Assembly (NCBI RefSeq): GCF_009917525.1
Contig: NZ_QZDU01000002.1
Coordinates: 496,001-560,000, forward strand
Direction of reading: 5' to 3'
DNA: 64,000 bases
Source of the DNA: Acutalibacter sp. 1XD8-36
GTDB lineage: Bacteria; Bacillota; Clostridia; Oscillospirales; Acutalibacteraceae
Shown: positions 4,588-32,741 of the stretch, piece after piece
Position numbering within the stretch: position 1 is the stretch's first letter
Layout of the letters: every line of letters begins with the position of its first letter
Translations under genes and position numbers: made by a program
The notes under the pieces: model-generated
The model's database searches: none
Told to the model about the DNA's origin: nothing
The model's input: the letters and a program-made list of their open reading frames with translations, nothing else

Positions 4588-6310
4588 TCGCGGTCTCTCC
4601 TTTCTGCTGGGATTCATAGACCTCCCTATAGATGGGGCTGGTCTCTAAAAGCTCCTCATGGGTGCCGGCGTCGGCAATCCTGCCGCCGTCCAGCACGATT
4701 ATCTGGTCGGCGTCCTGGACAGAGCTGACGCGCTGGGCGATAATGAGCTTGGTGGTGTCGGGTATCTCCTTTTTGAAGGCCTCCCGTATCAGCGCGTCGG
4801 TATGGGTGTCAACAGCGCTTGTGGAGTCGTCAAGTATAAGTATCTTCGGCTTCTTTAACAGCGCCCGGGCAATACACAGCCTCTGCTTCTGCCCGCCGGA
4901 CACATTGGTGCCCCCCTGCTCGATGTAGGTGTCGTAGCCGTCGGGGAACTCCATTATAAAGCCGTCGGCCTGGGCCAGCCTGCACACCCTCTGGATATCC
5001 TCGTCAGTAGCGTTTTCATCGCCCCATCTCAGGTTATCCTTTATGGTGCCTGAGAACAGCTCGTTCTTTTGCAGGACCATGGCGACTTCCTCACGAAGGG
5101 CCTCCACGTTATAGTCCCGCACATCCTCTCCGCCGACCAAGACCTGGCCGCTTATAACGTCGTAGAGCCTGGGTATCATCTGCACAAGGCTGGACTTGCC
5201 GCTGCCCGTGCCGCCCAGGATACCCACTGTCTGCCCGGACTTTATATCAAGGTTTATCCCCGACAAACAGGCGCGCCCTGAGCGCTTATAGTTGAAGTCC
5301 ACATCCTTAAACTGTATTGAGCCGTCCTTAACGGTGGTAAGGTTTTTCTCTCCGCTCAGTATATCGCTCTTCTCGTCCAAAATTTCCACCACGCGCGTGG
5401 CAGAGGCCCTGGACATGGTGCCCATTACCAGTATCATCGTGAGCATCATCAGGGCCATGAGCACCTGCATGGCGTAGCTCATCATGCTCATGAGCTGGCC
5501 GGTAGTCATACTTGAGCCGACTATCAGCTTCGCGCCAAACCACGATATCAGCAGGATTATTCCGTACATGCAGAACTGCATTAAGGGGGAGTTGAAGGCG
5601 AGAATCTTCTCCGCGAGGGCTGAATCATGGCGGAGCTTTTCGGAGGCATCCACAAACTTTTGGGTTTCGTGGTCCTCACGCACGAAGGCCTTTACCACCC
5701 TTATGCCCCTGAGGTTCTCCTGCACCACAGTGTTCATGCGGTCATAATGCTTGAACATGCGGGTAAATGCTGGGTGGGCCTTCATGGAGATAAAGGCGAG
5801 GCCCGCGCCCAGAACCGGTATTGCCGCCAGGAACAGCAGAGCCAGCCGGGCGTTCACCCAAAAGGCCATTATCATGGAGAAGATAAGGGTGGAGGGGGCA
5901 CGCACGGCAATGCGTATTAGCATCTGAAAGGTGTTCTGGATATTAGTCACGTCGGTGGTAAGCCTGGTGACGATACTGCCGGTTGAAAACTTGTCGATAT
6001 TGCTGAAGGAGTACTTCTGCACAGCATAGTACATATCCTGCCTTAGGTTCCTTGCAAAGCCGGTTGAGGCCCTGGCCCCGAAGAAGCCCGACAGCACCCC
6101 GAAGGCCAGGGACACTATGGCGCACAGCACCAAAAGCAGCCCTGTCTTCCAGATAACGCCCATATCCCCGGCGTTAATGCCGTTGTCTATAAGCCCCGCC
6201 ATGAGCACAGGGATTATGACCTCCATCACTACCTCCATTGCGGCGGTTAAAGGGGTCAGCACCGTGTCCCGTCTGTATTCCCGGATTGCCCGGGAAAGCT
6301 TGCGTATCAT
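4577..6310 (-). CDS. Heterodimeric ABC exporter subunit, degenerate ATPase half (BmrC/YheI-like)
   Basis: 577 residues: six-helix ABC membrane domain plus nucleotide-binding domain. Walker A is GGTGSGKSS and the signature VSGGQKQR. The residue after the Walker B aspartate is Asp rather than catalytic Glu (ILDDSTSAVD), the usual mark of the degenerate site in heterodimeric exporters. The start at 6310 (MIRKLSRAIREY) follows AAAGGA; a longer reading adds 17 residues without a good ribosome site. It pairs with the gene at 2677. Confidence 0.9.
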   Translation of the reverse strand: MIRKLSRAIREYRRDTVLTPLTAAMEVVMEVIIPVLMAGLIDNGINAGDMGVIWKTGLLLVLCAIVSLAFGVLSGFFGARASTGFARNLRQDMYYAVQKYSFSNIDKFSTGSIVTRLTTDVTNIQNTFQMLIRIAVRAPSTLIFSMIMAFWVNARLALLFLAAIPVLGAGLAFISMKAHPAFTRMFKHYDRMNTVVQENLRGIRVVKAFVREDHETQKFVDASEKLRHDSALAEKILAFNSPLMQFCMYGIILLISWFGAKLIVGSSMTTGQLMSMMSYAMQVLMALMMLTMILVMGTMSRASATRVVEILDEKSDILSGEKNLTTVKDGSIQFKDVDFNYKRSGRACLSGINLDIKSGQTVGILGGTGSGKSSLVQMIPRLYDVISGQVLVGGEDVRDYNVEALREEVAMVLQKNELFSGTIKDNLRWGDENATDEDIQRVCRLAQADGFIMEFPDGYDTYIEQGGTNVSGGQKQRLCIARALLKKPKILILDDSTSAVDTHTDALIREAFKKEIPDTTKLIIAQRVSSVQDADQIIVLDGGRIADAGTHEELLETSPIYREVYESQQKGETANAS

Positions 6311-22709: not shown

Positions 22710-23327
22710 CTACATATTGTCCCGGCTTTTCATACGCTGTGCCGCGTCATAAAAGGTGGACTTCGGCACCCCGCAAGCTTCCGCGGCTTTGCGCAGACTT
22801 ATTTTCTTTTCCCGCCACGCCTGGTACAGCGCCGGGAAGCTCTCGGGCAGGGCCCTGGCCTGGGGGCCGAAGTGCACGCCTCTGGCCTTGGCTGCTGCTA
22901 TGCCCTCGGCCTGGCGGGCTCGTATATTCACCCGCTCGTTTTCCGCTACGAAGGACAGCACCTGGAGCACTATATCGCTGAGAAAGGAGCCAAGTAAATC
23001 CTTATCCCGGCGGGTATCGAGCAGGGGCATGTCCAAAACTACAATATCTATCCCCTTCTCTTTAGTGAGCACGCGCCACTGCTCCAGAATTTCTTCATAG
23101 TTCCGGCCCAGGCGGTCTATGCTCTTTATGTACAGCATATCGTCCCGCCGAAGCTTTTTTACCATTTTAAGGTAATTTGGGCGCTGGAAGTCCTTTCCGG
23201 ACTGCTTGTCCGAGTAGATATTTTTTTCGGGCACCTCTAAAGCCCTCATGGCGACGAGCTGGCGGTCATGGTTCTGTTCGGCGGTGGACACCCGCACATA
23301 CCCATAAATATTCCCTGTCATTTCCAT
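22710..23327 (-). CDS. Small serine recombinase (resolvase/invertase family)
   Basis: 205 residues. Resolvase catalytic domain with YVRVSTAEQNHDRQL (nucleophile Ser14), RPNYLKMVKKLRRDDMLYI and SIDRLGRNYEEI, then the long E helix. A C-terminal HTH_7 follows (KISLRKAAEACGVPKSTFYD). It could be a resolvase or invertase. It lies outside the element that splits spoIIID, 128 bases upstream of the spoIIID start and on the opposite strand. No paired inverted recombination sites were found by eye. AAGGAGGATGGAA precedes the ATG. Confidence 0.9.
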   Translation of the reverse strand: MEMTGNIYGYVRVSTAEQNHDRQLVAMRALEVPEKNIYSDKQSGKDFQRPNYLKMVKKLRRDDMLYIKSIDRLGRNYEEILEQWRVLTKEKGIDIVVLDMPLLDTRRDKDLLGSFLSDIVLQVLSFVAENERVNIRARQAEGIAAAKARGVHFGPQARALPESFPALYQAWREKKISLRKAAEACGVPKSTFYDAAQRMKSRDNM

Positions 23328-23400: not shown

Positions 23401-23429
23401 TCATATACCCGTCCGCTGGCGCATACATA
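23401..23429 (+). promoter_or_regulatory. Sigma-E-like promoter of spoIIID
   Basis: TCATATA at 23401-23407, a 14-base spacer and CATACATA at 23422-23429. This is close to the Bacillus sigma-E consensus (KMATATT, 14-15 bases, CATACANT). It lies 27 bases upstream of the spoIIID start, as expected for a mother-cell gene. Confidence 0.7.
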
Positions 23430-23455: not shown

Positions 23456-23608
23456 ATGTCAAACAATGTTATCGACGACCGCGCTACCAAGCTAGGGGAG
23501 TATATCGTAGAAAATAAGGCAACCGTCCGCTGCGCTGCCAAGCAGTTTGGGGTTAGTAAGAGTACGGTGCATATGGAAGAAACAAAACAGAACGGTTGCT
23601 ATGGCTAG
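23456..23608 (+). CDS. spoIIID: spoIIID, 5' part, interrupted after codon 39 by a mobile element
   Basis: Codons 1-38 plus the shared His39 encode the N-terminal half of SpoIIID, the mother-cell DNA-binding regulator of sporulation. DDRATKLGEYIVENKATVR and the HTH helix AKQFGVSKSTVH match the family. In the integrated state the frame continues into the element for 11 foreign codons (MEETKQNGCYG) and stops at 23606-23608, giving a 50-residue protein without the C-terminal basic helix. The missing half lies at 32601-32741 in the frame needed for exact rejoining. AGAAGGTG precedes the ATG. Confidence 0.92.
   Translation: MSNNVIDDRATKLGEYIVENKATVRCAAKQFGVSKSTVHMEETKQNGCYG
23570..23573 (+). other. 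attL: left attachment core of the spoIIID element
   Basis: GGTG-CATA-TGGAAG: spoIIID sequence on the left, element sequence on the right. The four bases CATA are shared with the right junction. Confidence 0.8.
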
Positions 23609-23624
23609 TGAAATAGTGGAAAGG

Positions 23625-23656
23625 CCAGTGTACACAGATGCAAGAGTGTACACTGG
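23625..23656. repeat. Perfect 11-bp inverted repeat near the left end of the element
   Basis: CCAGTGTACAC at 23625-23635 and GTGTACACTGG at 23646-23656, 10-base loop. It could be a terminator for the decayed minus-strand gene or a recombinase accessory site; the T run after it is weak. Confidence 0.6.
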
Positions 23657-23670
23657 CTCTTTCTGTTTCC

Positions 23671-24117
23671 CTAGTCTTTCAGCGCAGTGACCGGCACCAC
23701 AAACACCCGTCCGGCCGCTGGTACGCTGCGTTCGCCAATCCGCACGGCACACACATCGCGGCAGGATGCTGACCCTTGGGGGCGTCCTCTCGTACCGGGC
23801 CAGGGAGCGCAGAAGCTTGGATGTGTCCCTCTTGACGCCATCGATGCAGTACATGTCGTCGCCAACCACAGCGTTCAAATATCCCTTGGGCAACAATGCT
23901 GCCTGCTGGAATCGCTGGATTTGTAGAGAGACATGGGCCGCATACGCAACTTGCCATTGCGCCCCGCACCGTTGTGGTAGGATAAAGTCCAGGTTGTGCC
24001 GCACCATTTTTGCCCATCCGCACAGACGGCTCCGAAGGTGGATGGATACTCTTGTAGGGTCTTGTCGATCATGCGGGGGCGGTAATCTTGTCTTTTCACA
24101 GCACGGCTTCCGTACAT
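23671..24117 (-). pseudogene. Decayed element gene of unknown function, two frameshifts
   Basis: Three minus-strand frames join into one plausible protein of about 145 residues. It begins MYGSRAVKRQDYRPRM and runs to about 23885. It then continues in a second frame (LLPKGYLNAVVGDDMYCIDG to YERTPPRVSI) and ends in a third (CRDVCAVRIGER to VVPVTALKD). The switch points are about 23885 and 23765. The family is not recognised. The decay suggests it is dispensable to the element. Confidence 0.5.
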
Positions 24118-24206
24118 TCAGCTCAATTATTCAATTCTATTCAGAGAGTTTTGATTTTTTACCGTTAAGCCGAGTCTCATCAAAAAGCTGCTCCAAAAGC
24201 CCAAAC

Positions 24207-24269
24207 GTTACAAACTGTCGCACAGATGCTACCCACTGTAACAGGTTTGCTGGTATAATTCTTTATAAT
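24207..24269 (+). promoter_or_regulatory. Control region of the XRE-recombinase operon
   Basis: Two TATAAT boxes (24254-24259 and 24264-24269) precede the XRE gene, and GTTACA (24207-24212) with TGTAAC (24237-24242) forms an inverted pair just upstream. No strong -35 box is seen, so transcription may need help or be repressed at this site. Confidence 0.45.
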
Positions 24270-24288
24270 CAGCAAGGTGGTGTAGGCA

Positions 24289-24621
24289 ATGATCTTTGAC
24301 TTTCCAGAACGGTTCCGTTATCTCCGGCAGTCCAAAAATTTAGCCCAAAGCCAGCTAGCCAACCTAATCGGTGTAGACAGGAGTACCATCTCGTCCTACG
24401 AAAGTAACATCCGGCAGCCCTCGTTGGACACGCTTTCGCGGATTGCAGATGTGTTTGGCGTAAGCACAGACTATCTTTTGGGACGTACGGATTCCCTCGG
24501 GTTTGACTCCCTTGCGTTGAACGGAGAGGAAAAAGCCCTGGTCTATAAGCTTGCTTTCGCACTGTCGAAAAAGAACCTACAGCTTCGCCAGCTACAGGAG
24601 GAGGGGATACCCGATGCCTGA
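24289..24621 (+). CDS. XRE-family HTH regulator of the element
   Basis: 110 residues. The HTH_3 domain covers about 8-65 (FRYLRQSKNLAQSQLANLI, the recognition helix around DRSTISSYESN, then FGVSTDYLLG), followed by a helical tail. Its stop overlaps the start of the recombinase gene, so the two are coupled and the XRE protein probably controls recombinase expression, as phage-type repressors do. Confidence 0.85.
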   Translation: MIFDFPERFRYLRQSKNLAQSQLANLIGVDRSTISSYESNIRQPSLDTLSRIADVFGVSTDYLLGRTDSLGFDSLALNGEEKALVYKLAFALSKKNLQLRQLQEEGIPDA

Positions 24622-26416
24622 ACCCATCTGTTCCCCGAATCACGATACCTGGGAGAAACGCTTTATTCCCGCCAAACCGAAAGCCACTCTCAGGAACCGG
24701 CTTTTCCGTGTATGCGCGTATTGCCGCGTTTCTACCGACAACGACGCGCAGCTGTCTTCCTTTGAGCTTCAGCAGGCCCACTACCGCCAGCTGGCAGACC
24801 AGCGGCCCAACTGGAGTTTGCGGCATATTTACGCCGATGAGGGGATCTCCGGGGTCTCGCTGAAAAACCGCACGGCGTTTAACGACATGATCGCCGCCTG
24901 TGAAAAGGGAGAATATGACCTGATTGTAACAAAAAGCGTCTCCCGCTTTGCCAGGAACCTGGTGGACTGTATCTCTCTGGTCCGTAGGCTCAAGAACCTT
25001 GATCCGCCGGTGGGGGTATTTTTTGAAACGGATAATCTGAATACCATAGAAGAAAGTTCCGAATTTATGCTCACCTTTCTTGCCTCCTTTGCCCAGGAGG
25101 AATCCGTCAAAAAGCGGGAAGCCATGATCTGGTCCCTGTCCCAACGGTTCAAGGACTGCCAGCTGCTGGCCCCTCCTCTGCTTGGTTATGATAGGCAGCG
25201 GGACGCCGCTGGCCACTACATCAAGCATGCCCCGCTGGTCGTCAACGAGGCCGAGGCAAATGTGGTCCGCTTTATTTTCGACGCTTACCTGTATGGCTGG
25301 TCCCAGGCAGATATCGCCGCTTTTCTTACGGATATTGGATGCGGGACAAAAACCGGAAACACCGGCTGGAGCAACAGTTCGGTGGGCTACATCCTTTCCA
25401 ACGAACGCTACTGTGGCGATATCCTGACCTGGAAGACCTTTACCTCCGACCTGTTTAACCACAAGCGCAAAAAGAACCGCCAGGACGTGGATCAGTATTA
25501 CTACAGGGAGCAACACGAAGCAATCATTACAAGGGAAAAATTCGAGATGGCGCAGGCCCTCCTTGAAAGCAGGAAGCACAGTATGCGCGGCGGAATGCCT
25601 CCCCTCCATGTGATAGACGACGGCGTCTTTCGCGGTTTCGTTCCCATTAACCACCATTGGATCAATGACGACCCCGGGCTGTATTATGACTTGTCAAACA
25701 GCGTAAGCATACCGCGCAGGGAGATCCGCCTGCTCAAAAGTTCCTTTTCCCGGTTCGACCTCAAAGGCTATCAGGTGGTCAGGAGCCAGTTTACGCAGGC
25801 ACGATATGAGGGGCCGACGGTAACGATCGGGATAGACAAGATCATATTCAACCTGTTCTGTGTGAGGACGTTTTCCGACGTGGGCCATATCCAGCTGCTC
25901 CTGCATCCTTCCCAGCGGAAGATCGCCATACGGCCCTGTGACAAAGGGGCCGTACACTGCATCAAATGGCGCCCTGATGGGCATATGCCCTTGTATGCAA
26001 AAATTTTGCGCTGCCAGCATTTTGGCACGGCTCTCTTTCGCATGATGGAGTGGGACCCGAATTACTTATATAAGGTCCGGGGGACATGGGTGCAGCGGGA
26101 GCACAAGCAGATTATTGTTTATAATTTGGAAGACGCGGTGTCTGCCGTGCCGCTGTCTCCAACCAGCGGAGCCCGCTTGCGGCGCGCTGAGCTATACCCG
26201 GAAGCCTGGGAATACAGCTTTGGCGATGAGTTCTATGACCACATCCGCGAGAACGGCATCTTTTATATGGGGCAAAGCGCAGCGTGGCAAGCGGACAGGC
26301 CCAGCGTGCCTGCCCCGGGGGTCGAGCAATATAGAACGCCCACCGGCTGCGAGCTTCAAGCGTTGGCGGACAAACTCAAAAAGAAGGATGGTGTTGGAAA
26401 TGCCGGCACAGGATAA
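24614..26416 (+). CDS. Atypical large serine recombinase with a novel C-terminal domain
   Basis: 600 residues from ATG 24614 (AGGAGG upstream, overlapping the XRE stop). The resolvase domain has CAYCRVSTDNDAQLSSFELQ (nucleophile Ser40), YADEGISGVSLKNR and VSRFARNLVDCI. The recombinase domain follows to about residue 325 (GWSNSSVGYILSNERYCGD). The usual four-cysteine zinc ribbon and long coiled coil are not seen. Instead there is FRGFVPINHHWIND, and then a domain at about 375-520 (KGYQVVRSQFTQ, IIFNLFCVRTF, HIQLLLHPSQRK, EWDPNYLYKVRG) that recurs in the three genes after it. It may act on this element or be a nested passenger. Confidence 0.85.
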   Translation: MPEPICSPNHDTWEKRFIPAKPKATLRNRLFRVCAYCRVSTDNDAQLSSFELQQAHYRQLADQRPNWSLRHIYADEGISGVSLKNRTAFNDMIAACEKGEYDLIVTKSVSRFARNLVDCISLVRRLKNLDPPVGVFFETDNLNTIEESSEFMLTFLASFAQEESVKKREAMIWSLSQRFKDCQLLAPPLLGYDRQRDAAGHYIKHAPLVVNEAEANVVRFIFDAYLYGWSQADIAAFLTDIGCGTKTGNTGWSNSSVGYILSNERYCGDILTWKTFTSDLFNHKRKKNRQDVDQYYYREQHEAIITREKFEMAQALLESRKHSMRGGMPPLHVIDDGVFRGFVPINHHWINDDPGLYYDLSNSVSIPRREIRLLKSSFSRFDLKGYQVVRSQFTQARYEGPTVTIGIDKIIFNLFCVRTFSDVGHIQLLLHPSQRKIAIRPCDKGAVHCIKWRPDGHMPLYAKILRCQHFGTALFRMMEWDPNYLYKVRGTWVQREHKQIIVYNLEDAVSAVPLSPTSGARLRRAELYPEAWEYSFGDEFYDHIRENGIFYMGQSAAWQADRPSVPAPGVEQYRTPTGCELQALADKLKKKDGVGNAGTG

Positions 26417-26993
26417 GCTGGACCAGATATTCTGCCAAACAATGCTTGACGGGGAAGAAGAGATCGTACCGGACCTGGCGGGGTTCCAGGTCACAAAAGC
26501 GGAACTGTTCTCCCATACCCGCGAACCAGCGCTCACCATCTGGCCGGCGCGCATCCGTTTCAATATGTCCTGTCTCAGGCGGTTTCCGGGGGTAACGCAC
26601 ATACAGCTGCTGATACATCCGGAGCAAAAGCGGCTGATCATCCGGCCCTGTCCGCCCGAAACGCCGGACGCCCTGCGTTGGGCGAAAGGCGGCGGGGATA
26701 AGGAGCTTGTGAACCGGGATATGCTTTGCAGGATATTTGCCGCCAAAATATTCGACCTGATGGGCTGGGACAGTGAGTACAGGTATAAGATTATGGGGAA
26801 TCCCGCCGTCTATCAAAAGGAAGTACTGTTTCTATTCAAGCTGACCGACTTTGAACTGTTTGTGGGAGGAAAAAGGGGAAAGTCCTATCTTCCCGGCGAG
26901 TGGCGGGAGTATTTCGGCATCCCGGCAGAACGGCATGAAGACAGCTATAAAATCAACCTTGCTGATGGATATATTACCACAGGCCGCGTTTAG
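26400..26993 (+). CDS. Recombinase-associated protein A (stand-alone copy of the recombinase C-terminal domain)
   Basis: 197 residues from ATG 26400 (an alternative ATG at 26388 adds four), overlapping the recombinase end. Core matches to the recombinase tail: AGFQVTKAELFSHT, IRFNMSCLRRFPGVTHIQLL, IHPEQKRLIIRPC, LMGWDSEYRYKIMG. The C-terminal 50 residues (YLPGEWREYFGI) are similar to the recombinase's own end (YPEAWEYSFG). Function unknown; possible subunit or directionality factor of the recombinase. Confidence 0.75.
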   Translation: MPAQDKLDQIFCQTMLDGEEEIVPDLAGFQVTKAELFSHTREPALTIWPARIRFNMSCLRRFPGVTHIQLLIHPEQKRLIIRPCPPETPDALRWAKGGGDKELVNRDMLCRIFAAKIFDLMGWDSEYRYKIMGNPAVYQKEVLFLFKLTDFELFVGGKRGKSYLPGEWREYFGIPAERHEDSYKINLADGYITTGRV

Positions 26994-27002
26994 GAGGGAA
27001 AA

Positions 27003-27458
27003 ATGAATCAATTCAAGACCGAAGTAGAGCCAATTTCAATTGAGGGCTTTCAAGTAGTCAGCGGCGAGCTTTTCTCCCATGTCAGCAGTTGTGCTTCGCC
27101 GTCCTGCACCATTTGGAGTTCGGGGATAACCTTCAACAGGCTGGCGCTGACCGCGCTGAACTGCTGTGAGCGCATCCGCCTGGAGGTACATCCACAGAAG
27201 AAAAGCCTTTTGGCCGTCCCGGTGACCGTCAAAGACAAGGACAGCATCATATGGCGCAAAAACATTAAAGAGTACGCACCAAGACGCATGGAATCCGTCC
27301 GGTTCTCCTCACAAATCTATGAGATATGGGGCTGGGATACCAGCTGGGTCTACAGGGCCGTGGGACACGTTGTGACAGTGGAGAACAAGATCATGCTCCT
27401 CTTTGATTTCAGCGCCCCTGAGCAGTGGAAGGCCAAAGAGAAAAAGACGGCAAAATGA
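27003..27458 (+). CDS. Recombinase-associated protein B (same domain family)
   Basis: 151 residues, start after TAGGAGGG. It shares EGFQVVSGELFSHV, CTIW, ITFNRLAL, RIRLEVHPQKKSLL and WGWDTSWVYRAVG with the recombinase tail and protein A, in the same order and spacing. No catalytic or DNA-binding motif is recognisable. Confidence 0.75.
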   Translation: MNQFKTEVEPISIEGFQVVSGELFSHVSSCASPSCTIWSSGITFNRLALTALNCCERIRLEVHPQKKSLLAVPVTVKDKDSIIWRKNIKEYAPRRMESVRFSSQIYEIWGWDTSWVYRAVGHVVTVENKIMLLFDFSAPEQWKAKEKKTAK

Positions 27459-27799
27459 ATGGCGTATACATCTCTTTTTATTTGAAAGCGAACCGAATCC
27501 ATATTTTTGTGGAAGCCCTTCGCTCTATGGGCAGTCCTGAACGGATCCGCTTTCTTATCTCCAAGGATGGGCGGATCCTGCTGATCCAGCCTTATGGCAA
27601 AAGGGGTTTTACCTCGCATATGATCCCACGGGAAGTATATGATGGCAAGCGGCCGCTGGAAATATCCAGCTATAAACTGTGTACAATCCTGGCGGAGCTT
27701 CACGGCTGGGACCTGGGTTGTTCCTACCGTGTGCCTGGACGGATCGCGGCGGACACCCGTTCTGCGCTCTTCTTTTTGGATAAAGCCGAGGCTATCTGA
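27455..27799 (+). CDS. Recombinase-associated protein C (most diverged copy)
   Basis: 114 residues from ATG 27455, overlapping the stop of protein B by four bases (ATGA). It keeps RIRFLISKDGRILLIQP in place of the HP-K segment and LHGWDLGCSYRVPGR in place of the GWD-Y-G segment, but has lost the N-terminal QVV strand. Last gene of the XRE-recombinase-A-B-C operon. Confidence 0.7.
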   Translation: MNGVYISFYLKANRIHIFVEALRSMGSPERIRFLISKDGRILLIQPYGKRGFTSHMIPREVYDGKRPLEISSYKLCTILAELHGWDLGCSYRVPGRIAADTRSALFFLDKAEAI

Positions 27800-27997
27800 T
27801 AGCAAAACAGAACTTCTATTGTGGGTTATGAAGTGAAATGGCCTTCCCATATAGCGTGGCAGGAATTACTAAATAATGTGATATGTTATTTTCACAAGCG
27901 GCAAATGCTATGTAAGCACAATACATCCAATTACTATCCGGTACGTGTAAATTAGAAATGAACTGGCGTATTGATATATAATGCCAGTTCATTTTAT

Positions 27998-28792
27998 TTA
28001 TGCATACCTCTCAAAAGCCTGTGATTCCCAGCGAAAATCCTTTTTTAAAAGCGTTTTGAATTGATCAAAGGTTCTCGTTTTTTCTTGACTCGGTCCCTGC
28101 CGCCAAAAAGCTGGAAACAGGGGCATGAACTTATCAATGACGGTGATGACCGGCACGTTCCACACACTGGATTCTTCATTGTCGATCACAATCACCCGAT
28201 GGGGCTTATCAATTTCAATCCCATCTAACCTTGTTCCGCCGGAGAGCATCAGTCCATTATAGGCGTACAGTTTGCTCAACTGGCAAGAACCAATCTTCAT
28301 ATCCAGCATGATCCTCCGGCGCAGCGGCTCGTAAATGTCCTCTCGCACGAAAGAGATCTGCGCCTTGCGGCTCATGCTGTTGGAGCGCTCGAAAGCCAGA
28401 TACCGACAGGGTCCAGCGCCAAAATCCAGCACGATGCCCTCTGGCCGGAACATACTCTCTGCTTTCTTCTGTCGAACGGCATGACGGTTCTGCGCGGCAT
28501 TCCGGTCGAAGATATTGCTGAAATCTACGTAGCAAATCACGTCCGACAGGTCGCTGATGAGCGTGTCCTCCATCGGTAGCTGGTAGTTGTCTCCACGCAG
28601 AACACACATAGTCTGAAAGAGCAGCGCGCAGTCCTGTTGCTCATGGAGCGAGGAAAGTACCTTGCACTTCTCCGTTGCTTTAGCATTTAGAGTAAAGGCA
28701 TAGCCGCTCTCCGCACCTCCCTGAGCATAGGCCATGAGGGCGCTAGCAGAAAGTGAGTAGATTTTATACCTGACCTGTGGCACGGCAGTCAC
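27998..28792 (-). CDS. Unknown element protein, possibly truncated
   Basis: 264 residues from GTG 28792 with a weak ribosome site. Notable stretches: VRYKIYSLSASALMAYAQGG, VICYVDFSNIFDRN, GIVLDFGAGPCRYLAFERSN, SYNGLML-like LYAYNGLMLSGGTRLDGIEI and RVIVIDNEESSVW. It reads like the front of a larger protein, and the end (FRWESQAFERYA) may come from a rearrangement. I recall superficially similar sequences in clostridial mobile elements but cannot name the family, and no catalytic motif is claimed. Confidence 0.55.
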   Translation of the reverse strand: MTAVPQVRYKIYSLSASALMAYAQGGAESGYAFTLNAKATEKCKVLSSLHEQQDCALLFQTMCVLRGDNYQLPMEDTLISDLSDVICYVDFSNIFDRNAAQNRHAVRQKKAESMFRPEGIVLDFGAGPCRYLAFERSNSMSRKAQISFVREDIYEPLRRRIMLDMKIGSCQLSKLYAYNGLMLSGGTRLDGIEIDKPHRVIVIDNEESSVWNVPVITVIDKFMPLFPAFWRQGPSQEKTRTFDQFKTLLKKDFRWESQAFERYA

Positions 28793-28842
28793 CTCTTGCC
28801 CAAATTATACCAGAGTCCTTTCCGGTTTGCAATATGAATACT

Positions 28843-28880
28843 GCTCCCACTTTTTCAAGCTGGGAGCGTTTCTATTTTAC
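28843..28880 (+). terminator. Hairpin with CTCCCA/TGGGAG arms
   Basis: GCTCCCACTTTTTCAAGCTGGGAGC followed by a T-rich stretch, just upstream of the small gene at 28898. Confidence 0.5.
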
Positions 28881-28897
28881 CGAAAGGACTGATGTGT

Positions 28898-29155
28898 ATG
28901 CCAAAACCCATCGAAAAGCTTACCGTCATCGACGGCGAAACCCTACAGGACATGAGGTTTCAGCCGGGAAAGGGTGTCTTCTTCCAAAGCCGCAAAAGTA
29001 ATGGACAGCGGCTGGTGCAAGTCTTCTTTGTCTCTGCAAAGGACGTAAGTGCCGCAAGTGACGCAACTTTGAGTGGTGCCGGATTTACCGTCCCTTGCGA
29101 CCCTTACAATGCTGAACTCCCGGTATTCTCTAGGGGAAACGCCCATTCAGCGTGA
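28898..29155 (+). CDS. Small hypothetical element protein
   Basis: 85 residues, MPKPIEKLTVIDGETL at the start, GAAAGGA upstream. One motif-like stretch is FQPGKGVFFQSRKSNG. No known domain or membrane segment. It may be a fragment of a larger mobile-element gene, since the sequence turns GC-rich directly after the stop. Confidence 0.4.
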   Translation: MPKPIEKLTVIDGETLQDMRFQPGKGVFFQSRKSNGQRLVQVFFVSAKDVSAASDATLSGAGFTVPCDPYNAELPVFSRGNAHSA

Positions 29156-29438
29156 GCCGCTACTTTCGACCCTTGCGCCCCTGTGAGGCCACAGCAGGCC
29201 CGTGTTGGCGTTTTTCGGCGGCAGCTGGGTACGTCTCCACCACCAGGCCCTGAGAAGGGCGTTTTGGGGCAATTCTGGCCCCGTTTCGCGGCAAGGTTCA
29301 AAGGGGCCGGATTTCCCGGCAGGGGAGGGCCGTAAGGGCCTCCCGCTGGGGGGGCCTCCCGCTGGGGCAAGCAGAGCGCGTGGCTGTCCGCCCCGCACAA
29401 AAGAACCGGGCAGAAGCCCGTACCCACTTTAGAAAGGT
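29156..29438 (+). other. GC-rich non-coding stretch, possible oriT remnant
   Basis: 283 bases with no supported gene. It contains a perfect tandem duplication of a 16-base unit (GGGCCTCCCGCTGGGG at 29336-29351 and 29352-29367) and a GCCCGTACCC/GGGCAGAAGCCC hairpin-like region just before the MobC-like gene. A transfer origin normally lies here in mobilisable elements, but no nic site was identified. Confidence 0.4.
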
Positions 29439-29798
29439 ATGAAAGGCAATAGAAAACGAGCAGAAACTCTGACGATTCGTCTGACAAAAACAGAGAAAGA
29501 AATGATTCAAAAGAAAGCAAAGAAGGCTCAACTCAGCGTTACAGATTTTTTCGTTGCAACATCGTTGCGCACGGAGATTCACGTTGCCGAGAACATCAAG
29601 CCTCTGCTGATTGAGCTGAAAAGAATCGACAACAACATCAACCAAATCACCATGAAAATCAATGCGGGAGCGTTCCACTCCGCTGACTTTATGGAAGTCA
29701 TACAAGGCCAGCGGATGCTTTACCAGCAGCTCCCGCGCATAGGGGAGGTCGATGATGGCAACCATAAAATTTATCCAGGAGAGCCGCCAATCAATTAG
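29439..29798 (+). CDS. MobC-like relaxosome accessory protein
   Basis: 119 residues. N-terminal ribbon-helix-helix-like ETLTIRLTKTEKEMIQKKA, then a long helical region with LKRIDNNINQITMKIN, a hallmark of the MobC (plasmid mobilization relaxosome) family. It overlaps the start of the relaxase remnant at 29755, the normal mobC-mobA arrangement. It looks intact although its partner is broken. Confidence 0.8.
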   Translation: MKGNRKRAETLTIRLTKTEKEMIQKKAKKAQLSVTDFFVATSLRTEIHVAENIKPLLIELKRIDNNINQITMKINAGAFHSADFMEVIQGQRMLYQQLPRIGEVDDGNHKIYPGEPPIN

Positions 29799-29957
29799 TG
29801 CCATGAAAGGCGTGATTTCCTACTGCTTGCAGGAGAAAAAAGTTGCGGATGATGCCACTGGCCAGCGCATGGTCAGCGGCATTTTTGCGATGGCGAGAAC
29901 ACATTTGCGGAATTTTTGACTACAAAGACCGCCTATGGGAAGCAATCATTGGCCTGA
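29755..29957 (+). pseudogene. Relaxase (MobA/VirD2-type) remnant, frameshifted and truncated
   Basis: Begins MATIKFIQESRQSISAMKGV and continues ISYCLQEKK to RMVSGIF, matching the N-terminus of MobA-type relaxases. A frameshift at about 29885 then gives MARTHLRNF and a stop at 29917-29919. The shifted frame continues the family sequence (CDGENTFAEFLTTKTAYGKQ) to a stop at 29955-29957. The catalytic His triad and the rest of the protein are gone, so the element can no longer mobilise itself by this route. Confidence 0.8.
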
Positions 29958-30076
29958 CAGCCGGCATAATACCCAACTCCAATTAATTTACCCCAGCGGT
30001 TCGGTGCTATCACCGGGCCGCTTTTCATATATATTCACATCGAGAAGCTGAATCCAAAGGAGGCCTGGCAAACAAT

Positions 30077-30262
30077 TTGAGTAAAAAAAAGCTGAATTAC
30101 CGTTTTCATAATCCCAACCCCGACAGCCAAACGGCCAACTACATACTAAAGGTTTTCCTCGAATCGAACCGCCCAAAGGTTGAAAACGCGGTCCAACAGG
30201 CGGCGCAAGAAGTTCAGGCCGGGGAAGAAACGGAACATGAAGCCATTACCAGGGCAATGTGA
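30077..30262 (+). CDS. Small element protein with YRFHNPNP motif
   Basis: 61 residues from a TTG start (AAGGAGG about a dozen bases upstream). KKKLNYRFHNPNPDSQTANY followed by a short helical tail resembles small proteins I recall next to serine recombinases in clostridial mobile elements. Function unknown. Confidence 0.55.
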   Translation: MSKKKLNYRFHNPNPDSQTANYILKVFLESNRPKVENAVQQAAQEVQAGEETEHEAITRAM

Positions 30263-30320
30263 TTTTCTCTTGCTATTTTTCCGCCAATGCGGTACAATAG
30301 TCTTGAAAGGGGGCGGCCTT

Positions 30321-30620
30321 ATGCAAAAGGTTTATTCCATCCACGAAATCGAAAATATTCTCCACCCGGTTTTCGCTGGCTATGGCGTGCGGCGAGCGGT
30401 GCTGTTCGGCTCCTACGCAAAGGGACAGGCCACTCCCCGCAGTGACGTGGACATTCTGGTTGACAGCGGCCTGCGCGGGCTGGCGTTCTTTGGCCTGTTG
30501 GAAGGTGTTTCATCCACACTGAGCGTACCGGTTGACCTTATCGATGTTTCACAAATCGAGGAGGGCTCTCAAATTGATGCAGAGATACGGCAGACAGGGG
30601 TGCCGATTTATGGGCAGTAA
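30321..30620 (+). CDS. mntA: MNT-type nucleotidyltransferase antitoxin
   Basis: 99 residues. The minimal nucleotidyltransferase motif GS-x10-DxD is complete (GSYAKGQATPRSDVDILV). In MntA-HepT systems the antitoxin inactivates the HEPN toxin by adding AMP. AAAGGGGGCGG precedes the ATG. The stop overlaps the HEPN gene by 11 bases. Confidence 0.9.
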   Translation: MQKVYSIHEIENILHPVFAGYGVRRAVLFGSYAKGQATPRSDVDILVDSGLRGLAFFGLLEGVSSTLSVPVDLIDVSQIEEGSQIDAEIRQTGVPIYGQ

Positions 30621-30957
30621 GGATCTTGCGGTGCTGAGAAAAATCCTTCGGCATATCGAAAGCATTATGCGCTACTGTGCCGATTGCCGTACGCTGGAAG
30701 ATTTTTCATCCGACGCCATGCGCTTGGAGGCTACCGTCTTCAACCTGATGCAAATCGGCGAGCTTGCAAAGGAATCTCTGAGCGACGAGGCAAAGGCGCA
30801 GATTAAAACCATCCCCTGGCAGCAGATTTACGGCATGCGCAACCGGATTGTGCATGGCTATTCCGGGGTCAATATGCAAATCGTGTGGGACACCGTATCG
30901 GTAGACATTCCCATGCTTCATAAAGAATTAGAATCGATTATCAAAACAAATTCTTAA
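30610..30957 (+). CDS. hepT: HEPN-domain toxin (HepT-like)
   Basis: 115 residues, all-helical, with the HEPN RNase motif R-x4-H in MRNRIVHGYSG near the C-terminus. Partner of the MNT protein directly upstream. The pair is expected to act as a toxin-antitoxin module that stabilises the element, including any excised circle. Confidence 0.9.
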   Translation: MGSKDLAVLRKILRHIESIMRYCADCRTLEDFSSDAMRLEATVFNLMQIGELAKESLSDEAKAQIKTIPWQQIYGMRNRIVHGYSGVNMQIVWDTVSVDIPMLHKELESIIKTNS

Positions 30958-30962
30958 ATATG

Positions 30963-30998
30963 GCGGGGCCGAAAAAACGGCTCCGTCAATATTTTTTA
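30963..30998 (+). terminator. Intrinsic terminator after the MNT-HEPN pair
   Basis: GGGGCCG-A6-CGGCTCC hairpin followed by ATATTTTTTATT. Confidence 0.65.
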
Positions 30999-31027
30999 TT
31001 GCTTTCCTGAAAGAAGTGTGGTAAACT
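30999..31027 (+). promoter_or_regulatory. Promoter candidate of the SpoIVCA-like recombinase
   Basis: TTGCTT at 30999-31004 and TAAACT at 31022-31027, spacer 17. It resembles sigma-A; no convincing sigma-E or sigma-K promoter was seen by eye, so how excision might be timed is not explained by this sequence alone. Confidence 0.45.
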
Positions 31028-31069
31028 CAGTAGTAACAAAACGTTTAAAATGAATTAGTGAGGTGCCCC

Positions 31070-32605
31070 ATGAACATCGCTGCCTATTGCCGCGTCTCCA
31101 CCGACAAGGAGGACCAGCTTAACAGCCTAGAAGCCCAGAAAGAATTCTTCTCAGAATACACCAAGCGCACCGGCGACGCGCTTGTGCGCTTGTACGCCGA
31201 CGAGGGCATTTCCGGCACAAAGATCAAGAACCGCAAGGAGTTCCTGCGGATGATGGCGGATGCCGAGCACCATCTGTTCGACATGGTAGTGGTTAAGGAC
31301 ATCAGCCGCTTTGCCCGAAACACTGTGGACCTTCTCCAAAGCGTCCGCAGGCTGAAAGCCCTGGGCATCGAGACCCAGTTCCTCACTGCCAACATGACCA
31401 GCATGGGCAACAGCGAGTTCGTGCTAACTATCTTCGGCGCGCTGGCCCAAGAGGAGAGCGCCAACACCTCCAAGCGGGTAAAGTTCGGCAAGAAGATGAA
31501 CGCCGAAAAAGGCCGGGTTCCCAACATCGTCTACGGCTATGATAAGACCGCTGGGGACTATTTTAATCTGGCAATTAACCCAACAGAGGCTGACATTGTC
31601 TGCCAAATCTTCCATATGTACACTGAGGAAGGGGCGGGCGCGGCGAAAATCGCCAACACCCTCAACGAGCGCGGCCTGCGCACCAAGCGCAACTGCTCCT
31701 GGAGCCAGAACGCCATCTGCCGCATTTTGACCAATGAACTGTACATTGGTAAAATCATCAACGGCAAGCAGGAAGTTTCCGACTTCCTCACCGGCCAGCG
31801 AGCGGACAAGCCTGAGGATGACTGGATCGTGGTGGACAGGCCCGAACTGCAAATCATCTCCCCCGAAACCTTCCAGCAGGCCCAGGAGATTTTGGATTCC
31901 CGCCACAAGACTTTCCGCACCGACCACCAGCGCCAGAGCAACAAGCACCTGTTCTCCACCCTCATCAAGTGCAAGGAGTGCGGCTGGTCCTTCTACCGCA
32001 CCGTGCGCACCTACAAAAACACCTATGTGCGCTGGGTCTGCTCCGGCCACACCGGGCGGGGCGCGGATAGCTGCCCCAACGCCGTCACCGTGGACGAGGA
32101 CGAATTGACAGGCGCCTTGCAGGAATACTTCGCCCAGGTGCTGATGTCCAAGAAAAATATCATCCCCTATGTTGTCAAGGAGTTCCAGCGGGTTTACCGC
32201 ACTAAGGATGATAACCAGGAGTATGAAAAGGAATTGACCGCCCAACTTGCTAAGCTCCAAAAGACCCGCCAGAAGTACATGGATATGTACACCGATGACC
32301 TTATCAGCCGGGAGGAGCTGAACGAGAAGATAGGCGGCTCAAAGAAGGAAATCGAGCGCATTGAAAACGAGTTGAAAATCGTCGGCTACAATATCACCAA
32401 AGGCGACCAGTTGGAAAGCATCTTGCAAAACACCTTCAAGACCATCGAGGACATCACCGATGTGCACTCCATGACCAACGCTCAGCTCAAGCGGCTGATC
32501 CAGAAAATCGAGGTGGACAAGGACGGCAACGTGGACATCTACCTGCGGCTTCTAGGCGATTTAGGTCTGGAAGAAACCGTAGTGATTGCAGACAACCATA
32601 CATAA
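31070..32605 (+). CDS. SpoIVCA-like large serine recombinase, probable excisionase of the spoIIID element
   Basis: 511 residues from ATG 31070 (GAGGTG upstream). Resolvase domain with IAAYCRVSTDKEDQLNSLEA (Ser10 nucleophile), YADEGISGTKIKNRKEF and KDISRFARNTVDLL. Then the recombinase domain, a zinc ribbon (LIKCKECGWSF and later WVCSGH and SCPNA), a coiled coil (LAKLQKTRQKYMDMY to IERIENELK) and a C-terminal tail. Length and layout match SpoIVCA (about 500). It abuts attR, and its TAA stop (32603-32605) is completed by spoIIID DNA. In an excised circle the frame would extend 14 residues (YGRNKTERLLWLVK). Confidence 0.95.
   Translation: MNIAAYCRVSTDKEDQLNSLEAQKEFFSEYTKRTGDALVRLYADEGISGTKIKNRKEFLRMMADAEHHLFDMVVVKDISRFARNTVDLLQSVRRLKALGIETQFLTANMTSMGNSEFVLTIFGALAQEESANTSKRVKFGKKMNAEKGRVPNIVYGYDKTAGDYFNLAINPTEADIVCQIFHMYTEEGAGAAKIANTLNERGLRTKRNCSWSQNAICRILTNELYIGKIINGKQEVSDFLTGQRADKPEDDWIVVDRPELQIISPETFQQAQEILDSRHKTFRTDHQRQSNKHLFSTLIKCKECGWSFYRTVRTYKNTYVRWVCSGHTGRGADSCPNAVTVDEDELTGALQEYFAQVLMSKKNIIPYVVKEFQRVYRTKDDNQEYEKELTAQLAKLQKTRQKYMDMYTDDLISREELNEKIGGSKKEIERIENELKIVGYNITKGDQLESILQNTFKTIEDITDVHSMTNAQLKRLIQKIEVDKDGNVDIYLRLLGDLGLEETVVIADNHT
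32601..32604 (+). other. attR: right attachment core of the spoIIID element
   Basis: CCATA-CATA-AGGACG: element sequence on the left, spoIIID on the right. Joining the element ends across the core gives CCATA-CA-TATGG, a 5-base inverted repeat around a CA dinucleotide, a plausible serine-recombinase attP centre. Confidence 0.8.
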
Positions 32606-32741
32606 GGACGTCTCCCAGCGTCTAAAGTATATCGACCGGGGCCTCTATCGGGACGTAAAAAATATCCTGGCCGTGAACAAGGCCCAACGGCATATCCGCG
32701 GCGGGCTTGCCACCAAGAAAAAATATGAGTCGCTGAAATGA
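32601..32741 (+). CDS. spoIIID: spoIIID, 3' part (codons 39-84)
   Basis: Reads HKDVSQRLKYIDRGLYRDVK, NILAVNKAQRHIRGGLATKK, KYESLK and stop: the C-terminal half of SpoIIID, including the conserved VNKAxRHIRGGxATKxKY basic helix that contacts DNA. It has no start of its own and is silent until the element is removed. The frame fits exactly with the 5' part at 23456-23572. Confidence 0.92.
   Translation, partial: HKDVSQRLKYIDRGLYRDVKNILAVNKAQRHIRGGLATKKKYESLK

Follow-up and report, generated by a model that had tools for sequence, protein, structure and literature searches.

Why is the gene of the sporulation regulator SpoIIID present in two pieces in Acutalibacter sp. 1XD8-36, and can the pieces be brought together again? 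We examined this question in a 64,000-nucleotide stretch of its genome, here called the window, to which the coordinates below refer. The 5' half of spoIIID lies at 23456-23572 on the forward strand (ATG to CAT, 39 codons), and the 3' half, on the same strand, restarts in frame at CAT 32601-32603 and ends at 32741. Between them, after codon 39, are 9,031 bp of other DNA (removal coordinates 23570-32600). We believe that this segment is very probably an integrated mobile element with codons 39-40 of spoIIID as its attachment site, and that its excision in the mother cell rebuilds the gene. This reading is based on the precise insertion at a CA core within a dyad attachment site (attP), an intact recombinase of a family that almost always lies at spoIIID, the lack of any other spoIIID and the constraint on both halves.

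The split spoIIID gene and its attachment site

The SpoIIID model TIGR02844 matched the 5' half alone (E 8.7e-13, model positions 3-41) and the 3' half alone (E 3.2e-16, model positions 34-79). These were the sole matches in the genome above the PF12116 cut-off, with five weaker ones below it, and the profile search found no second intact spoIIID in this 99.5% complete assembly. An earlier sequence-only reading had held that the cut falls at codon 39 and that exact removal restores the gene. Both points were borne out. In-silico removal of the element gave an 84-codon spoIIID, which aligned without gaps to the uninterrupted gene of a congener (genome G010, locus L022) over 255/255 bp at 90.6% identity. 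Uninterrupted genes, which that reading had asked for in relatives, are present in congeners, and the two parts form one protein there. Sporulation gene-intervening elements are recognised by a gene interrupted within its coding region and without another copy, by a reading frame restored on exact removal, and by an intact site-specific recombinase encoded at the attachment site. Each of these was found at spoIIID, the restored frame in the sequence only.

The left junction (attL) covers 23545-23611 with the CA core at 23570-23571, and the right junction (attR) covers 32561-32625 with the core at 32601-32602. The CATA that had been noticed at both junctions is indeed there. Among 26 complete elements (3.0-34.4 kb), CA was present in both copies in 26/26, with either T or C as third base in the right copy. 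Because only CA is invariant, the crossover is most simply placed at 23570-23571 and 32601-32602. The joined ends of the element form a dyad attP centred on CA (core CCATA-CA-TATGG), and the arms of these 26 sites matched at a mean of 20.5/40 positions, compared with 10.1 after shuffling. A dyad attP with a central core is the expected look of an attachment site of large serine integrases. The adjoining recombinase (31070-32605, forward strand, 511 amino acids) has resolvase, recombinase and zinc-ribbon domains, and its reading frame extends into the crossover, so that in the integrated state the stop codon (CAT-ACA-TAA) comes from the spoIIID 3' half. Its PDB matches include SprA structures, which are distant only (9dxd, E 2e-10).

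Recurrence of the insertion in Clostridia

Among 29 genomes of the genus, a full-length spoIIID was found in 22 (G026 with an extra 5' fragment), and two partial matches only were found in six (the window genome, G002, G003, G008, G013 and G020). The halves of G013 lie on different contigs, and G001 has a single fragment at a contig edge. Between the window genome and G002, the element is 97.4% identical over about 9 kb and the best spoIIID stretch 84% identical, which points to horizontal transfer. At least two partial matches without a full match occurred in 14/337 spoIIID-matching genomes of a family sample (395 searched), in 14/272 of a class sample (392 searched) and in 23/264 of the family of G743 (396 searched), the last 23 being judged from the match table, with the sequence read for G743 and G809 only. 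Ten family-sample cases outside the genus were searched again. Both halves were read in nine, with the break at the identical codon, and in G336 the 3' half alone was read. In 10 of the 13 other class-sample cases both halves were readable, and these 10 represent seven families besides that of the window (by family code). In G538, G476 and G747, among others, the 5' half still reads HKDV, and the crossover may therefore lie a few bases further on there. The halves are 64.7 kb apart in G538, a single-contig genome.

A profile built from five congeneric recombinases detected 128 relatives in genome contigs, of which the best 80, with 76-98% identity, were retained. The spoIIID 3' half follows directly in 75/80 of these, mostly in Oscillospiraceae and Lachnospiraceae records; it starts within 80 bp of the alignment end in 66/80 and within 160 bp in 9 more. 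Five loci remain. A contig end cuts L090 and L125, in the latter just after the 3' half has begun with its initial codons. The recombinase of L092 runs on into other sequence. In L080 and L095, this type of recombinase and its attP arms apparently lie at other sites, which looks like off-site insertion, and the Christensenella genome of L080 gave no spoIIID match in the profile search. In 18/20 genomes behind the recombinase loci, none titled as a metagenome assembly, both halves were present and a full-length match was absent; one of these 18 (L079) is the congener G008. Ruminococcus torques showed the 3' half only. In L146, one recombinase is followed by two 3'-half matches (2238-2363 and 4870-4995), which may reflect a second insertion or a decayed one. 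Judged from these searches, insertion at one point recurs in Clostridia of many genera and of several families, among them many gut bacteria.

In 35 split spoIIID genes, every half was open, and conserved throughout the part that was inspected. By the Nei-Gojobori method, the median ratio of nonsynonymous to synonymous substitution rates (dN/dS) was 0.19 over 85 pairs of N halves and 0.27 over 57 pairs of C halves, the pairs of split genes having dS 0.1-1.5 and being non-independent. Purifying selection acts on both halves. In G026, a 5' fragment stands beside an intact spoIIID and the recombinase is cut after about 52 residues; in G224, a 5' fragment likewise stands beside an intact gene and no recombinase was detectable in the stretch. 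Few as they are, these two cases fit the idea that the split is kept only while the recombinase works.

A second gene, sigK, is also split in the window genome (locus L230, contig C21:99800-116000). Its N part (C21:114958-115296) and C part (100634-100984) are about 14 kb apart, and a 636-amino-acid large serine recombinase of this skin-like element ends beside the C part, that is, the 3' part. Within the genus, both sigK parts were found in the window genome (G000), G003, G007, G012 and G020, whereas the spoIIID-split genomes G002 and G008 gave a full-length sigK match. Since the two sets differ, the two kinds of element occur independently. Both genes are split in G000, G003 and G020, where two excisions would be needed. 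The window element sits in spoIIID, not sigK, and is thus not a skin element proper. SpoIVA is intact in the window genome.

The small gene and other contents of the element

A protein of about 59 amino acids with the core KLNYRFHNPN...KVE is common to the smallest elements. It was missed by BLASTP at 1e-6 among the matches listed, was seen among the open reading frames (ORFs) of the smallest elements and was confirmed with a hidden Markov model. In the window, its gene is at 30077-30262 (forward strand, 61 amino acids, TTG start). The profile matched in 81/94 loci at E<=0.1, 78 of these at 1e-6; the 81 include matches with E 0.004-0.09 in G056, G038 and G139, and the 94 include places reached twice (G002/L077, G020/L078, G008/L079, G123/L091), the G743 coordinates being those of the genome of L101. 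L147 has two copies of the gene in one element. The sigK element of the window genome showed no copy of the small protein. Searches of Pfam, NCBIfam and PHROGs gave nothing credible for this protein, and its best profile match in PDB reached an E of only 0.16. AlphaFold2 predicted a single long helix (residues 16-60, mean predicted local distance difference test score 83.9).

The promoter regions of the small genes were scanned with a degenerate sigma-E-type pattern (…TA…, N13-15, CATA), the consensus being that of B. subtilis. After 11 matches without a nearby start codon and one with less than 100 nt upstream had been dropped, the pattern was found within 100 nt before 59/67 small genes, where 2.0 were expected from shuffling. 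In the controls, it occurred in 4/78 regions upstream of recombinases and in 36/1600 random stretches of the same loci. Among 46 non-redundant upstream regions, 39 had the motif, and in 38 regions with a 14-base spacer, bases that the pattern leaves free were conserved too (T before CATA in 35/38, G after it in 31/38), with a flat spacer. In the window, the motif before the small gene is TGCTATC-N14-CATATATA (30005-30033, forward strand), and the pattern match before spoIIID, TCATATA-N14-CATACATA (23401-23429, forward strand), shares its architecture. Sigma-E control of the recombinase was considered and rejected on the control count. Sigma-A-like sites with at least 9/12 matching bases precede 58/78 recombinases, compared with 24% after shuffling. 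The window recombinase has a weak site of this type (30999-31027, forward strand, TTGCTT-17-TAAACT), which a stricter scan missed. Sporulation gene-intervening elements also encode a directionality factor made in the mother cell; here the small protein, with its conserved gene and sigma-E-type motif, is a candidate for this role.

Relatives of the recombinase were also present in viral contigs (11 in all). Four of them (L231-L234) are 70-72% identical and each is followed by an unsplit attP. Because L232-L234 are identical over a 4-kb stretch, these four represent two distinct cases, and in both the small gene is present with its N14 motif. In L231 there are genes for DNA polymerase, helicase, ligase and endolysin as well as tail-like genes. 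L232 encodes an amidase, a ribonucleotide reductase and a domain of the DNA-polymerase-III type, a content that is no more than suggestive of a phage. The unsplit attP indicates that the molecule is not integrated there and that free forms exist for this class of elements; the unsplit attP was seen in these related viral contigs only. By their gene content, some related elements are apparently phages. Matches to the attP pattern alone in viral contigs were treated as chance, as the recombinase was found in none of the loci listed (E 1e-30).

In L242 (MT838016.1, 'Bacteriophage sp.', 6.4 kb, human faeces), a recombinase of 58% identity precedes a spoIIID 3' half, and for this reason the record appears to show a chromosomal border and not a gene carried by a phage. 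SpoIIID has been listed among the sporulation genes of gut phages (PMC10294663), and a C. pasteurianum prophage is said to encode it (PMC5027557); the passages concerned, each an excerpt of its paper, do not mention a split host gene.

The remaining genes of the window element are mostly on the forward strand. An Xre/Cro-type helix-turn-helix regulator (24289-24621, HTH_3 E 1.1e-18) is followed by a second large serine recombinase (24614-26416) with Resolvase and Recombinase domains and without a zinc-ribbon match, and by three small ORFs with no family above the cut-off (26406-26993, 27003-27458 and 27425-27799). Within 24614-27458, the C-terminal part of this recombinase and the next ORFs resemble repeats of one domain and cluster together; 26406-26993 gave a weak DUF6128 match. 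A 264-amino-acid ORF on the reverse strand (27998-28792) has no Pfam match. A MobC/NikA-like mobilisation protein (29439-29798, forward strand; NikA-like E 3.1e-18, MobC 1.8e-5) is followed on the same strand by a 55-amino-acid ORF (29752-29919), which has no Pfam match and by eye resembles the start of a 455-amino-acid Relaxase ORF of G008, as if broken. An MNT-type nucleotidyltransferase (30297-30620, NTP_transf_2 E 1.7e-9) and a HepT-like (HEPN) ribonuclease (30610-30957, E 5.1e-21), both on the forward strand, form a probable toxin-antitoxin pair. The Pfam scan of 12 ORFs of the element found no phage structural or lysis family of the kind expected of a temperate prophage. The fragment just described is the only trace of a relaxase of its own, as an integrative mobilisable element would have; the relative in G008 has a full one.

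Nucleotide-sugar and glycosyltransferase-like genes occur in the large elements of G008, G038, G056, G139 and G212 (the Pfam scan covered G008 alone), and the element of G008 (L041/L042) additionally has flagellin and relaxase genes. A small resolvase/invertase gene (22710-23327, reverse strand) lies outside the window element, divergent and just upstream of spoIIID.

Proposed excision of the element, rival explanations and known systems

In the integrated state, the cell would lack full-length SpoIIID. Sigma-E in the mother cell would switch on the spoIIID 5' half and the small gene, whose product, as directionality factor, would turn the constitutive recombinase towards attL x attR. The element would exit as a circle, and spoIIID would be rejoined in the mother cell only, while the forespore would keep the element, which would thus be inherited. 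SpoIIID would then act on later genes, probably including sigK, itself interrupted. Related elements, some apparently phages, use the same spoIIID site across Clostridia. With somewhat less confidence, but still as the probable case, we think that codons 39-40 are a class-wide site for phages and small elements that use the mother-cell sigma factor of the host for their own excision factor, and that in some gut Clostridia (the window genome, G003 and G020) the mother-cell programme relies on two successive excisions, in spoIIID and then in sigK. If so, DNA surgery in the mother cell would be something that recurs among commensal spore formers, part of the annotated spoIIID losses would in fact be switches, and prophage borders may account for some of the spoIIID sequences attributed to phage contigs (excerpt of PMC10294663; MT838016.1). 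The loci also provide a resource of serine integrases that share one conserved site, with candidate directionality factors.

Developmental excision is strongly supported by these patterns, and several points weigh against it. Excision itself is deduced from sequence comparison, and it is by association that the small protein is assigned a role in directionality. The profile search did not find the small gene in 13/94 loci; several of these have little sequence before the recombinase, and L109, L142 and L148 have 4.7-9.3 kb there. The sigma-E-type motif is absent from 8/67 copies, with the 11 start-less matches left out, and the window element has a weak recombinase promoter and a small gene that begins with TTG. 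Off-site insertions exist (L080 and L095), and R. torques has just the 3' half. The sporulation genes examined in the window genome besides spoIIID were sigK and spoIVA only, and we know of no strain of this organism that sporulates.

The element could instead be an ordinary integrative element or prophage that leaves spoIIID randomly or on stress, with poor sporulation of its carriers and excision uncoupled from development. MobC and the broken relaxase, the phage-type genes of L231, the off-site insertions and an element far more similar between congeners (97.4%) than their spoIIID (84%) would all suit such a history. The sigma-E-type motif before the small gene would have no obvious use in it, and in 35 split genes the halves have remained constrained; we consider it unlikely. 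That spoIIID is simply dead and the insertion marks loss of sporulation is more improbable again. Loss of spoIIID is common, as no match at all was found in 120/392 class genomes, and the single half in R. torques could be read in this way, but low dN/dS in both halves, intact recombinases, an intact SpoIVA and the retained promoter and frame speak against it. We give hardly any credence to two halves that work as individual polypeptides, or whose joining takes place in RNA or protein, without DNA excision. Each half does belong to an open frame that contains a potential start codon; upstream, however, the 3' frame is unconserved and consists of the recombinase end, and the intact relatives have a single chain.

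As far as our search of the open-access PMC literature goes, which returned partial listings and leaves most subscription papers outside, no report of an intervening element in spoIIID was found. The excerpts obtained describe developmental excisions at sigK, spsM, spoVFB, gerE and yabG (plus vrin), in agreement with the sequence-only reading, which knew of no described spoIIID element. The comparisons below refer to such excerpts. The closest likeness is with the skin element of C. difficile (PMC5025042), where a mother-cell-line regulator gene is split and a large serine recombinase stands directly before the 3' half. Experiments showed there that the recombinase is expressed constitutively from a sigma-A promoter and that the directionality factor depends on sigma-E; the motifs suggest the same arrangement here. 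The target there is sigK, and the factor, CD1234, depends on both sigma-E and SpoIIID. Such dependence on SpoIIID is impossible in an element that splits spoIIID itself, which is a further point against developmental excision here. The sequence-only reading had likened the place of the recombinase to that in the sigK skin element. This stands for C. difficile, not for B. subtilis, where spoIVCA lies beside the 5' part (PMC10747680).

In B. subtilis, skin and the SP-beta prophage in spsM likewise concern split genes that are rebuilt only in the mother cell, and SP-beta is a real phage with the recombinase SprA and the factor SprB (PMC4191935, PMC6957869). Their targets differ from ours. The gin element in gerE of Bacillus cereus ATCC10987 (PMC5595907) is a non-phage element in the gene of a small mother-cell regulator and has more than one serine recombinase, as does the window element; it differs in its target, its size (28.6 kb), its three recombinases and in being described from one genome. 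The elements yin in yabG of Clostridium botulinum and vfbin in spoVFB also carry recombinases, and for yin a directionality factor was predicted and the circle observed (PMC10747680). They too lie in other genes, and yin was reported as unique to one strain. Unlike the excisions at sigK, spsM, spoVFB, gerE and yabG, the excision proposed here would act on a regulator above sigK, and a compact gene pair, the recombinase and an unnamed protein of about 59 amino acids, travels with the spoIIID insertion.

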